Origin: a virus
Length of the DNA stretch: 48,068 nucleotides
Virus record (IMG/VR): IMGVR_UViG_3300028384_000990
Span: 1 to 48,068 of that record
Direction: 5' to 3' (one strand)
The notes beneath the pieces are model-generated. The model made no database searches and had not been told where the DNA came from. It saw only the letters and a list, made by a program, of their open reading frames with translations. Of this stretch, positions 17,657-21,592 are shown piece after piece; position 1 is the first letter of the stretch; every line of letters begins with the position of its first letter. Made by a program: the position numbers and the translations under genes.

Positions 17657-17834
17657 AAGACGCCCTTCAAACGAGCAATCGTATTCTGATAATTGGGAAA
17701 AAATCTTTGGTAAGAAAGAACCAGAGGTTAAGGCTCGTAAGAAAACTCCTAAACATGCCAAATCACAAGTTCACACCGACCAAACTAAGGTCATCCCTCG
17801 TAAAACAAAGTATAATAAATTAAGTAGCGAGTGA
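17625..17834 (+). CDS. Small basic phage protein (HGGKGS motif), 69 aa
   Basis: The opening MNQWHGGKGSKRRPSNEQSY and SDNWEKIFGKKE matches short basic proteins widespread in marine T4-type phages (from memory), where it is a hypothetical protein. The rest is Lys/Arg-rich. The reading frame of 17638 overlaps it but lacks this motif. Its last 15 nt overlap the end of the leftward tape-measure candidate, so the two transcription units converge here without a clear terminator between them. Confidence 0.65.
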   Translation: MNQWHGGKGSKRRPSNEQSYSDNWEKIFGKKEPEVKARKKTPKHAKSQVHTDQTKVIPRKTKYNKLSSE

Positions 17835-19535
17835 GGCGTTTAACGCTGAATCATTTACTGGCGCTTGATTCGTTACTGGTGCAGCCCCTTGATATGCATT
17901 GTTATTGATCACTGTAGCATTTGCTTGATTGATACCACCATCTGCTGTTGCCATTTCACTATCTAGACCATCTTGTGCGGCTTGAATATTCTCAGCACTT
18001 GTTGGTGCTACTTCTGATAGAGTATCAAAATCTACATTTGAATCTTGTACACCTAAGACTGTCTCAGCAGCCTCAGTTGCAACTTTATCTCCTGCCAGAC
18101 CTCCAACAATACTTGCGCCAATCACGGCAGTACCATATGCTAACCAACCTAATGGACCAAATGCGAGTAGTGGTGCAGCTGTAGCCGCTACTGCTGAACC
18201 TGCAGCTAATGAACCAGTTGCTTTACCAACTGAACCAGCTTTTGTTGCTTGATATTGTTTCTCAATAGTATCCCATTCTTCAGGTGAAATAGGTCTCTTA
18301 CCACCATCAGCTGTGTCTACAATTGGGTCTTGTGTTTCATATGCCTGTTTGAGTGCTTTATATGATTCTGCATTGTCTTTAGCATCTAGACCACCTTCTA
18401 ACAATGCACCAACTAATGGTAATCTCTTAGCAAGTTGTTTAGCGCCTGTAGCTGCTACTTGTCCTGTTTTAGTCAAAACATTTGAACCAGCTTTTGCGCC
18501 TTTAGCAAGATCATCTCCTGAACCTACAACATTTTTAACTGCTGTTTGTGCCTTACTTGGGTCTGGTTTGACAGATGGAGTTTTTGTACCAGGAGTTTTT
18601 GGTGGTGTTTTCATACCAGGAATTAATTTTGTAAGTGACTTGATGGCATCATCAAAGAAACTGCCTAACTTTTTAGCACCTGCAGCCATTTTGGCGCCCA
18701 TATCATCGATAGCAGAACCGATCTTAGTTGCCATGTTACCAACTATTCTAACACCTTCATCGATGAATCCTTTTGCCATTTGGGCGATACCTGCAAATGC
18801 TTCAAATTTGAAACCTGCAATAACTGCCATGATAATACCAACGATTGCTATTAACATGAGTGAGAATTTGTTGAAACCACCTAATAGGCCTTTTCGACCT
18901 TTATCTTCTTTGTCTCTAGTTTTACCTAACGCTTCAGCATTGTCATCGATTGCTTCTGTATGATTTTGGATTGCAGCTTGATTATCTTCTTGTGATTCTT
19001 CTATAGTCTCACTACTCTTGTCTTGGTCTTCACTAGCACCAAACAATGAATTAGACATCGCTTTGAATGGACTAATAAGAAGTTTACCAGTACCTTTGAG
19101 AATGTTACCGACACCTTTGAGTTTATCAACGGCATCTTCCATCAATTTGAATCCTTGGTTAGATGAAAATCCTAAATCTTTAAATCCTTTTGATATATCA
19201 GAACCACCAGAATCCATTATCACCTTTGAAACACCATCAATGGCATTTTGCATAGGTTCAAACATCTTCTGGAAGAATGTCTTATCAGGTACTACTGGAT
19301 TTTCATCATTACCACCAGGTTCGTCATCTTCGTTTGGAGTACTTGTTACAGGTGGTGTAGACGGTGTTGCACCACCAATCATTGCATCAAATCCATCTTC
19401 GATTGATCCCATAGAATCACGAATGTCTGTCATTACAGACATGAACTTATCAAATGGATTTGCTTCTAATACCTCAAACTCAGCAACTGTAATGTCGCCA
19501 CCTTGAGACGGTGATGGTAATGCTAACTGTGCCAT
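17820..19535 (-). CDS. Tape-measure-like tail protein (position of T4 gp29)
   Basis: 571 residues, close to T4 gp29 (590). Layout: a low-complexity N-terminal part with a Pro/Thr/Asn-rich linker (about 55-80), helices, a hydrophobic segment at about 227-245 (FSLMLIAIVGIIMAVIAGF), helical repeats (QMAKGFIDEGVRIVGNMATK), another Pro/Lys linker and a glycine/alanine-rich hydrophobic region around 440-490 (LLAFGPLGWLAYGTAVIGAS). Such alternation of helices and membrane-like segments is typical of tape measures. It follows the gp26 frameshift gene, which is the normal position of a tape measure after tail assembly chaperones. Sequence similarity to gp29 is not visible by eye. Confidence 0.6.
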   Translation of the reverse strand: MAQLALPSPSQGGDITVAEFEVLEANPFDKFMSVMTDIRDSMGSIEDGFDAMIGGATPSTPPVTSTPNEDDEPGGNDENPVVPDKTFFQKMFEPMQNAIDGVSKVIMDSGGSDISKGFKDLGFSSNQGFKLMEDAVDKLKGVGNILKGTGKLLISPFKAMSNSLFGASEDQDKSSETIEESQEDNQAAIQNHTEAIDDNAEALGKTRDKEDKGRKGLLGGFNKFSLMLIAIVGIIMAVIAGFKFEAFAGIAQMAKGFIDEGVRIVGNMATKIGSAIDDMGAKMAAGAKKLGSFFDDAIKSLTKLIPGMKTPPKTPGTKTPSVKPDPSKAQTAVKNVVGSGDDLAKGAKAGSNVLTKTGQVAATGAKQLAKRLPLVGALLEGGLDAKDNAESYKALKQAYETQDPIVDTADGGKRPISPEEWDTIEKQYQATKAGSVGKATGSLAAGSAVAATAAPLLAFGPLGWLAYGTAVIGASIVGGLAGDKVATEAAETVLGVQDSNVDFDTLSEVAPTSAENIQAAQDGLDSEMATADGGINQANATVINNNAYQGAAPVTNQAPVNDSALNASLAT

Positions 19536-19538
19536 ATA

Positions 19539-19910
19539 TTATTTTCCGAATGCTTTTCCTGCTTCACTGATACCAAAACAACCAAGTGTCACTACAACAA
19601 ATGATGTGTAGATAGTATCAGATATTTCTAGTGGTTCACCGTCCATAGCGGTTACTAAATCAAATATACCAAATGCGACCATCATTGCGAAGGATATAAA
19701 CCCTACGATGGCCTTTTCATTTACATCATTATCGTCTAAGAATATATCGAGAACTCTTCTCTTCTTCTTAGGTTCAATAGCTTTCTTTTGTGCCTGTGCA
19801 TCAGCTTTGAGTCTAGCGATTTCTTTTTCTTTATCATGAAGGTTGTTGATCAACTGATCATACTTTTCTAAATCAAGTTCAACTTCATTTCTTGAAATGT
19901 CTTCTGCCAT
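19539..19910 (-). CDS. Coiled-coil membrane protein, 123 aa
   Basis: The start ATG overlaps the stop of the gp26 -1 extension (TAATG), and the stop is 3 nt before the next gene, so it is embedded in the tail operon. N-terminal coiled coil (LEKYDQLINNLHDKEKEIAR), a basic linker (EPKKKRR), then two hydrophobic helices (AIVGFISFAMMVAFGIFDL and YTSFVVVTLGCFGISEAGKA). A membrane protein inside a tail operon is unusual. It may be membrane-associated during assembly or a virion protein that acts at injection. No family recognised. Confidence 0.65.
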   Translation of the reverse strand: MAEDISRNEVELDLEKYDQLINNLHDKEKEIARLKADAQAQKKAIEPKKKRRVLDIFLDDNDVNEKAIVGFISFAMMVAFGIFDLVTAMDGEPLEISDTIYTSFVVVTLGCFGISEAGKAFGK

Positions 19911-20104
19911 TATCTTCTCCTCTGAGCTCTTTGCTTAGCTTTTTGTTTCTCTTCTTCGAGATGGTCAAGAAGTAACTTAATGTATATCTCCCTTTCCCAC
20001 GGTATCATACCTTCTAGTTCAGTTAATGAGTACTTGTGGTACTGCATCATCTGAAAGTTAGTCGTATAATAATTGACTAAACTCTCATGTGAAAGGGCTA
20101 TTAG
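19910..20104 (-). CDS. -1 frameshift extension of gp26 (64 codons)
   Basis: After the slippery site, the -1 frame reads 64 residues and stops at TAA (19910-19912) overlapping the next gene. The sequence is protein-like: LSHESLVNYYTTNFQMMQYH, KYSLTELEGMIPWEREIYIK, LLLDHLEEEKQ, then a basic end (KQRAQRRR). The aromatic/helical pattern with TELEGMIPWERE resembles the tail of gp26-type or gp51-like proteins of marine T4-type phages (from memory). It has no ribosome site. The only in-frame ATG pair (about 20045-20050) would drop the first 18 residues, which also look conserved. Frameshifted product: 234+64 = 298 residues. Confidence 0.75.
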   Translation of the reverse strand, partial: LIALSHESLVNYYTTNFQMMQYHKYSLTELEGMIPWEREIYIKLLLDHLEEEKQKAKQRAQRRR

Positions 20105-20110
20105 AAAAAA
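20082..20110 (-). promoter_or_regulatory. Programmed -1 ribosomal frameshift signal
   Basis: On the coding strand the 0-frame codons AGT TTT TTC TAA contain the heptamer T TTT TTC (complement of 20104-20110), a perfect X XXY YYZ slippery sequence ending just before the stop. After 8 nt, CTTTC (complement 20091-20095) can pair with GAGAG (complement 20082-20086) around a 4-nt loop. The hairpin is short and has one G-U pair. The -1 frame stays open until the next gene. Confidence 0.7.
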
Positions 20111-20805
20111 CTATTAAGTCCTTCTAACACTCTCGTGTTTTCTGTTTTACACTTTCCACATGTAAATGTAACTTCATGTTTCAGTGTAGGAACACTTTGA
20201 AAAAATTCTGCCATTCTTTCAAATTGATCCAATGTAAGACTATCGATAAAGTCATCAATCTCTGAGTCTCTATATTCTGAGAACTCATAAACATTATCTT
20301 CATCAAACAATCTTACCATGCAACTTCGTAGAACAGGTTTGATAGCTTCTGTTTCGCTTAAACCTTCTACTTTAGATACACTAGTAACAGTTGGATATTG
20401 CATCTCTACAACTAAGTCATCGTTGAGTCGAATCATGTTATCTACATCTTCATCAACTTCAACAGTGACATCATTAAGGTCTACTTCTACTCTACCCCAA
20501 CCATCACATTCTTTTTCTGTACAAGCAACACTAATGCCGGCAGTTTCACCAACAGACTTTGCTCGTATTTGCATAAACAAGTATTCTAGATCGCCTACTG
20601 CAAGTTTATTCGCATCAACAGTCTTACTTGTTACAGCAGAGATCATATCGATCACTGCCTGCATAATATCTTTAGTATTTTCACTTTCTCTAGCGACTAA
20701 CAAACTTCTTTGTTCTTTCACTAGAAAAGGTCGATACTTAACGACCTTCTTTGATATCGGCAGTGTGAGCGTATAGCTCGGGGCTGCCTGAATGGGTAAC
20801 GCCAT
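20101..20805 (-). CDS. 26: gp26-like baseplate hub assembly protein / tail assembly chaperone
   Basis: 234 residues in frame 0 (T4 gp26 208). Strong TTAGGAGTATATT ribosome site. The opening SYTLTLPISKKVVKYRPFLV followed by KEQRSLLVARES is the hallmark of the T4 gp26 baseplate family. Cys95/Cys100 (CTEKEC) and Cys216/Cys219 (CGKC) could bind zinc. The central part is acidic. It ends with the slippery sequence described separately, so ribosomes can make a longer form. Its position between gp54 and the tape-measure candidate suits a tail assembly chaperone pair like lambda G and GT. Confidence 0.88.
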   Translation of the reverse strand: MALPIQAAPSYTLTLPISKKVVKYRPFLVKEQRSLLVARESENTKDIMQAVIDMISAVTSKTVDANKLAVGDLEYLFMQIRAKSVGETAGISVACTEKECDGWGRVEVDLNDVTVEVDEDVDNMIRLNDDLVVEMQYPTVTSVSKVEGLSETEAIKPVLRSCMVRLFDEDNVYEFSEYRDSEIDDFIDSLTLDQFERMAEFFQSVPTLKHEVTFTCGKCKTENTRVLEGLNSFF

Positions 20806-20821
20806 AATATACTCCTAATAA

Positions 20822-21592
20822 TTAAATACCAAAACCACCTGTAAATCCACCCAAACTTCTCACTCTATCTTGGATTTTATTCAATGCACGACTATCTTTG
20901 CCTGCAACTCCGAGAAGTTGGTCGAAAGCACCCAATGCTCTCGATCCTTTATTTAGTATGTCCGAGATACCTTGTTGTGACTCTTTGTAATCGGTACTAA
21001 ATGTTCTGAATGCCATTGTTACTTCAAACTTCATGATCTCATCTGAAGATTCGTATGCAAGATCCATAGCTGCATATGACAATGGATATGCCTCATGAAG
21101 TGTGTAAACTAATGTCTTATTGTCTCTTTGGTTTAGTACTGCAATCTCAATCTCACCAACATAATCGTAATAGTAATTGAAGTATGGTGTCAATGAACTA
21201 CCTACTCTATCACCTTTATCAGATGCGTAGATGACATCTTGCCATGCCTCGATTAAGAATCTGTCAGCGAATGATGAATCGCATAAGAATGAAAATGTTG
21301 CTTCACCTCCATCCATTGAAATGTTTGTTGGCATCTTTCTCAAAGGTCCATACTCTGAGAACTCTTCGACTTCTAGTTGTCTTCCTGGTAATGTAGCGTT
21401 TGAACATCTTACGCCGTCAATTTGAATACCAAGATTTGGACATCTCATGTCGACCATGAATCTATTTGCACGAGCACCTTGATCGAACTTATATCTGAGA
21501 TTGTTAATGTCTTGATTGCCTTGCTTGAAGACTTCGATTGCACCCAATCGATCTCCAACACTTGTGATTTTATCTAATATTTTTCTAGCCAT
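20822..21592 (-). CDS. 54: gp54-like baseplate/tail-tube initiator
   Basis: 256 residues (T4 gp54 320). NRFMVDMRCPNLGIQIDGVR (about 42-61), CSNATLPGRQLEVEEFSEYG and FSFLCDSSFADRFLIEAWQD are the pattern of gp54 in marine T4-type phages, a tail-tube-fold protein. It completes the baseplate and primes tube polymerisation with gp48. The start ATG overlaps the gp2 stop by 8 nt. The C-terminal third is less conserved and helical. Confidence 0.82.
   Translation of the reverse strand: MARKILDKITSVGDRLGAIEVFKQGNQDINNLRYKFDQGARANRFMVDMRCPNLGIQIDGVRCSNATLPGRQLEVEEFSEYGPLRKMPTNISMDGGEATFSFLCDSSFADRFLIEAWQDVIYASDKGDRVGSSLTPYFNYYYDYVGEIEIAVLNQRDNKTLVYTLHEAYPLSYAAMDLAYESSDEIMKFEVTMAFRTFSTDYKESQQGISDILNKGSRALGAFDQLLGVAGKDSRALNKIQDRVRSLGGFTGGFGI

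Follow-up and report, generated by a model that had tools for sequence, protein, structure and literature searches.

The window, that is, the whole 48,068-nt virus record IMGVR_UViG_3300028384_000990 that was analyzed, belongs to a marine T4-like phage and carries a T4-type gene 26, which is read on the minus strand and is listed with its surrounding features in Table 1. The product of this gene is a member of family PF12322, the match covering positions 2-218 of 219, and it is the single PF12322 match in the whole record, which may be an incomplete genome. The 3' end of the gene reads CTT AAT AGT TTT TTC TAA, and the perfect T_TTT_TTC directly 5' of the stop codon is in a register that fits tandem -1 slippage. 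The -1 frame is open for 66 codons (FF + 64); its translation from the slip site is FF-LIALSHESLVNYYTTNFQMMQYHKYSLTELEGMIPWEREIYIKLLLDHLEEEKQKAKQRAQRRR and it ends in a TAA (19912-19910) that overlaps the ATG of the next gene as TAATG, the likely ribosome site of that gene, GGAG, being within the last codons of the extension. The TAATG at 19908-19912 suggests that the next gene may be translationally coupled to shifted ribosomes. The first in-frame ATG of the extension is 60 nt past the slip site and no Shine-Dalgarno (SD) pairing was found at this ATG; unlike T4 gp51, the extension is not a full-length gene with its own start codon. Thus, what the sequence-only reading had described here, namely, a perfect heptamer before the gp26 stop, a -1 frame open for 64 codons up to the next ATG and an extension without a ribosome site of its own, is indeed present. 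When TTTTTTC was counted across the window no enrichment was found, there being 14 occurrences compared to 18 expected, and therefore the motif alone is weak evidence.

Table 1. Position, strand and basis of assignment of the features at the gene 26 locus of the window
Feature	Positions	Strand	Basis
Tail tube gene, upstream neighbor	20822..21592	-	phrog_45 E=4e-30
Gene 26, short chaperone form (TAC-N), 234 aa, zero frame	20101..20805	-	PF12322 E=3.8e-56; phrog_150 E=2.5e-59
SD-like AGAAGG, possible stimulator	20120..20125	-	9 nt upstream of heptamer
Slippery heptamer T TTT TTC	20104..20110	-	sequence; T TTT TTN in 98/98 scored junctions
-1 frame extension, gp51-like C-terminal domain of the putative long form	19910..20110	-	phrog_634 E=7.5e-28; 549 phage records; no -1 stop in 94 relatives
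Short alternative hairpin CTTTC-ACAT-GAGAG (one G-U pair)	20082..20095	-	8 nt past heptamer; sequence
12-bp hairpin with one bulge, possible stimulator	20052..20087	-	begins 17 nt past heptamer
123-aa gene between extension and tape-measure candidate	19539..19910	-	ORF list; ATG overlaps extension stop
571-aa tape-measure candidate	17820..19535	-	phrog_11300 E=1.4e-5; position

When the extension was searched with tblastn, 549 phage records were found and in nearly all of the matches listed the alignment begins at residue 1, which is the slip site. A scan of viral contigs with a gp26 profile gave 80 loci (a single gp26 protein gave only 3), and these profile loci together with named isolates yielded 98 deduplicated heptamer junctions, a junction being scored where gp26 and the -1 extension were both found; 3 other loci, in which the extension is present and the heptamer is not, were counted apart from the 98. 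In all 98 the T TTT TTN is in the slipping register and the extension is always in the -1 frame, the heptamer being T TTT TTC in 49, TTT in 46, TTA in 2 and TTG in 1. These junctions come from Kyanoviridae, pelagiphages, Emdodecavirus, Otagovirus, non-Tevenvirinae Straboviridae, Menderavirus, Pootjesviridae and others. Codon usage of the same genes, given the amino acids, predicts T TTT TT with a probability of about 0.4 per gene, and a naive product of this value over the 98 junctions ignores relatedness, although the junctions come from many genera and from several families. Among 94 alignable relatives not one has a stop over 111 nt of the -1 frame whereas each other frame is stopped in all 94, and the changes among them concentrate at position 3 of the -1 codons (2750 compared to 1577 and 1118 at the other positions). 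The zero-frame stop drifts among five offsets (7, 10, 13, 16 and 31 nt) while the extension stays. In four relatives (L030, L038, L045 and L103) this stop is 31 nt after the heptamer start and the short form gains a tail, which overlaps the -1 coding region in a different frame. As judged from these sequence comparisons the slip site and the open -1 frame at the end of gene 26 are confirmed as real, and it is conservation rather than the motif that makes the case.

Since one single-base change would join both frames, it could be argued that gene 26 and its extension were once one frame and that the break is an artefact of a sequencing error or of gene decay. The identical break is found at the identical site in isolates and in metagenomes of many sources and phage groups; the comparative data refute this explanation and we give it virtually no chance. 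The canonical heptamer is absent from Ackermannviridae and from some Vibrio and Pseudomonas relatives. The gp26 homologues of Pseudomonas Cygsa01 (L095), Vibrio BX-1 (L096), Vibrio D495 (L097) and Serratia MAM1 (L098) do not have the T6 heptamer, their last codons being NTT TTC or NTT TTT, and a -1 extension was found in three of the four, weakly in BX-1, and not in D495; in these phages the slip site may be different or weaker. Retention of the extension behind a broken heptamer had been named beforehand as evidence that would speak against a frameshift, and it was seen, but only in a few distant relatives.

Whether the extension could be expressed from a start codon of its own has to be considered because in GenBank a separate gp51 that starts past the slip site is annotated in S-PM2, P-SSM2, P-HM1 and HTVC008M. 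By this account the extension would be a small gene in its own right, annotated as gp51 in cyanophages, and in the window it could begin, for example, with MMQYHK... However, the annotated starts vary from phage to phage and omit conserved residues, homology in the -1 frame already begins at the slip site, and an independent gene does not need the T_TTT_TTN to be retained. Moreover, 69 of the 98 junctions lack an ATG in the first 15 codons after the slip, 42 lack ATG, GTG and TTG alike over this distance, and only 5 have a start codon with SD pairing as strong as -5 kcal/mol or stronger. From these sequences independent initiation of the extension appears unlikely, and a separate gene as the full explanation is in our judgment very improbable. 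Alignment of relatives had been set beforehand as the test of a frameshift, and it came out in favor of one, as the heptamer and the -1 frame are kept in 98 of 98 junctions, mostly with no ATG nearby.

When sequences that could stimulate ribosomal slippage were examined, anti-SD pairing upstream of the slip site was found to beat the synonymous null family-wide (z=-0.98 ± 0.13; controls +0.03 and -0.14) and the 51-nt downstream folds were more stable than their synonymous versions (z=-1.20 ± 0.16; controls -0.19 and -0.20), both averages counting related sequences as independent. In 38 of the 98 junctions a GAGGG ends 9 nt 5' of the heptamer; the AGAAGG of the window showed no excess over its own synonymous null (z=-0.1). 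The combination of an SD-like element about 10 nt upstream and a 3' RNA structure is like that in E. coli dnaX, which differs in that it is a host gene with an A_AAA_AAG site where the shift yields a shorter product. These signals bear on the possibility that the long form arises from transcriptional slippage on the T6-T8 run and not from ribosomal slippage. Runs of T or A can make the polymerase slip, and the heptamer consists of seven T in 46 of the 98 junctions; but the other 52 have only six T, a rather short run for a polymerase to slip on efficiently, the register is in every case one that fits tandem slippage of tRNAs, and SD-like elements and RNA structures are signals to be expected if it is ribosomes that slip. 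We consider transcriptional slippage to be extremely unlikely.

The 12-bp hairpin of the window has a folding energy of -11.0 kcal/mol with z values of -2.7 (synonymous) and -4.5 (dinucleotide). Covariation is seen for it among close relatives: in the window's lineage 80% of cells are paired, and 9 double-change cells were counted compared to 2.2 in shuffles, none of 500 shuffles being as high. That this hairpin stimulates frameshifting is a guess because its distance from the slip site is unusual; stimulator hairpins usually lie 5-9 nt from it. The short hairpin that the sequence-only reading had pointed to does exist, but this 5-bp stem is absent from the minimum-energy fold, which prefers the 12-bp hairpin, and the two compete for the same GAGAG. 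The region 20052-20095 thus holds two mutually exclusive hairpins on a shared GAGAG, and an attenuator-like switch is conceivable. A single consensus RNA structure was sought with RNAalifold over 94 relatives and none was found, the hairpins being lineage-specific. Three relatives (L001, L104 and L105) have a strong hairpin that starts nearer to the slip site. In S-CAM4 (L004) it was seen by eye that the heptamer is followed by a CCCTCT...AGAGGG stem with a loop complementary to the following ATATTATA, which could form an H-type pseudoknot.

The gp26 and the extension were modeled as two separate parts, with a pLDDT of 90 for gp26 and 82 for the extension, which is predicted to be helical. The best solved-structure match of the gp26 model in VIA-align was the HK97 tail assembly chaperone 2OB9 (rmsd 4.0 over 83 of 107 residues), with a Z of 7.5, which is below 8, compared to 4.0 for the next row; the match is limited to the N-terminal domain, model residues 1-85, and in Foldseek the same pair gave E=1.6. 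When the PDB was searched by sequence with gp26 and gp51, no credible relative was found. The model thus indicates that gp26 has, in its N-terminal domain only, the fold of solved tail assembly chaperones, which agrees with the chaperone role that had been proposed earlier by analogy with lambda G/GT. The order of tail tube, chaperone and tape-measure candidate, the last after a 123-aa gene, is the canonical one of tail tube, chaperone and tape measure. For the 123-aa gene no clear family match was found. A tape-measure candidate had been said to follow, and the 571-aa gene does follow, after the 123-aa gene; its position and weak profile matches weakly suggest that the protein is the tape measure. 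The family that it matches, phrog_11300, is also that of the positional counterparts in Chrysonvirus (L091) and Cronobacter S13 (L094), the counterparts in Schizotequatrovirus (L093) and in L089 have weak matches to tape-measure families, and the HTVC008M gene at this position is annotated as putative tail tape measure. By BLASTP no significant similarity was found between the 571-aa candidate and its positional counterpart in phiN3, or between two other positional counterparts and T4 gp29.

The extension of the window matches phrog_634, 'baseplate hub assembly catalyst' or gp51 (Table 1), as had been guessed, and it also matches positions 231-277 of phrog_150, from which it follows that some members of the gp26 family already include the extension. 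T4 gp51 itself is a complete PF12322 protein (E=3.9e-52) which spans positions 13-280 of phrog_150 and carries the extension, with phrog_634 matching at residues 147-246 (E=1.2e-23). By these profile matches the extension of the window is the gp51 C-terminal domain and T4 gp51 is a gp26 homologue plus the extension; likewise, on the sequence data, T4 has the short and the long form divided between two genes, 26 and 51, gp26 being the short form. It has been reported that cyanophage gp51 is only about 20% of the length of non-cyanophage gp51 (PMC3037559), and the reason for this is that the missing part is gp26 itself.

The chaperone-like fold, the order of the tail tube, chaperone and tape-measure genes, and the gp26/gp51 homology together make the mechanism lambda G/GT-like. 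In lambda the two forms are made in a set ratio, the short form coats the tape measure, the extension recruits tail-tube subunits and neither form is in the finished virion. The locus resembles lambda G/GT in having a short form and a -1-extended long form with the slip site at the 3' end, in lying between the tail tube and tape-measure genes, and in a domain fold that resembles the HK97 chaperone; the slip heptamer here is T_TTT_TTN and the likeness is one of architecture and fold. In the proposed mechanism most ribosomes would terminate at the TAA that follows TTT TTC, yielding the short form of 234 residues, and a minority would shift back by one base on T_TTT_TTC to yield a long form, which is the short form plus about 64 mainly helical residues, the gp51 domain. 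By analogy with lambda, the short form would coat the tape measure protein, the extension would recruit tail-tube or hub subunits, and both forms would be gone by the time the virion is finished. T4 and its close relatives encode these two forms in separate genes, 26 (short, TTC TTT, no slip site) and 51 (long, an in-frame fusion). The slip site, the conserved -1 frame, the homology, the predicted fold and the gene order are direct results, from which we infer that ribosomes slip, how often they do so and what each form does. The reading of a frameshift in a chaperone gene is strongly supported by these comparisons, and we are highly confident that gene 26 encodes a tail assembly chaperone with a short and a -1-frameshifted long form, the T4 equivalents of which are genes 26 and 51. 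If so, the gp26 and gp51 of cyanophages and pelagiphages, which now carry the labels 'baseplate hub' and 'hub assembly catalyst', can be given a definite role, and their gene model can be corrected.

Frameshifted G/GT-type chaperones were described by Xu, Hendrix and Duda (2004), as cited in PMC5009743, and that 2016 review names G-T frameshifting as a conserved feature of long-tailed phages 'except T4'. The chaperone locus of Vandenendeviridae and Andersonviridae is alike in its slip site and frame, with a T-run -1 frameshift where the short form ends and a -1 frame that is open family-wide, and differs in that it has a GTTTTT slip motif and belongs to other phage families (PMC12846349). Tail assembly chaperone genes of T4-like phages were identified by Vladimirov et al. 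(Virology 2022, PMID 34826709), and papers that cite this work report from it that some T4-like phages have two genes, one short and one a long fusion (PMC10885494), and that poly-T slip signals are found in the TAC-N genes of T4-like phages (PMC12846349). As far as these citing papers convey it, the chaperone identity and the frameshift mechanism have at least partly been published already. The sequence-only reading, which held the frameshift to be undescribed for T4-type gene 26, therefore stands in its frameshift, its chaperone role and its gp51-like extension but not in its novelty. In open-licence papers neither the SD-like element nor the RNA structures were found to be described, and the stimulators and the breadth of the frameshift may be unreported so far; the trick is widespread in phages, and what is added here is stimulator detail and breadth.

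That T4 has separate genes 26 and 51 had been pointed out correctly. Unlike the locus of the window, these are two divergently transcribed genes with no slip site, and the same arrangement is found in Merlin; the gp26 of both phages keeps the FF as TTC TTT, which is not slippery. Straboviridae outside Tevenvirinae, namely, Schizotequatrovirus, Chrysonvirus and Cronobacter S13, keep the frameshift and therefore, as far as sequence can tell the direction, the split into genes 26 and 51 probably arose within Straboviridae. A fuller scenario is that among T4-type phages the frameshift came first and is still in use in most lineages beyond the T4 subfamily, with SD-like elements 9-10 nt upstream and lineage-specific downstream hairpins as its stimulators, and that the T4 lineage duplicated the gene and lost the slip site; for all of these parts jointly we find the case evenly balanced. 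If it is true, the T4 lineage turned a translational ratio into two genes, and these phages offer a natural comparison of a protein ratio set by frameshifting with one set by gene duplication. At least 80% of T4 gp51 is covered in 1334 phage records.
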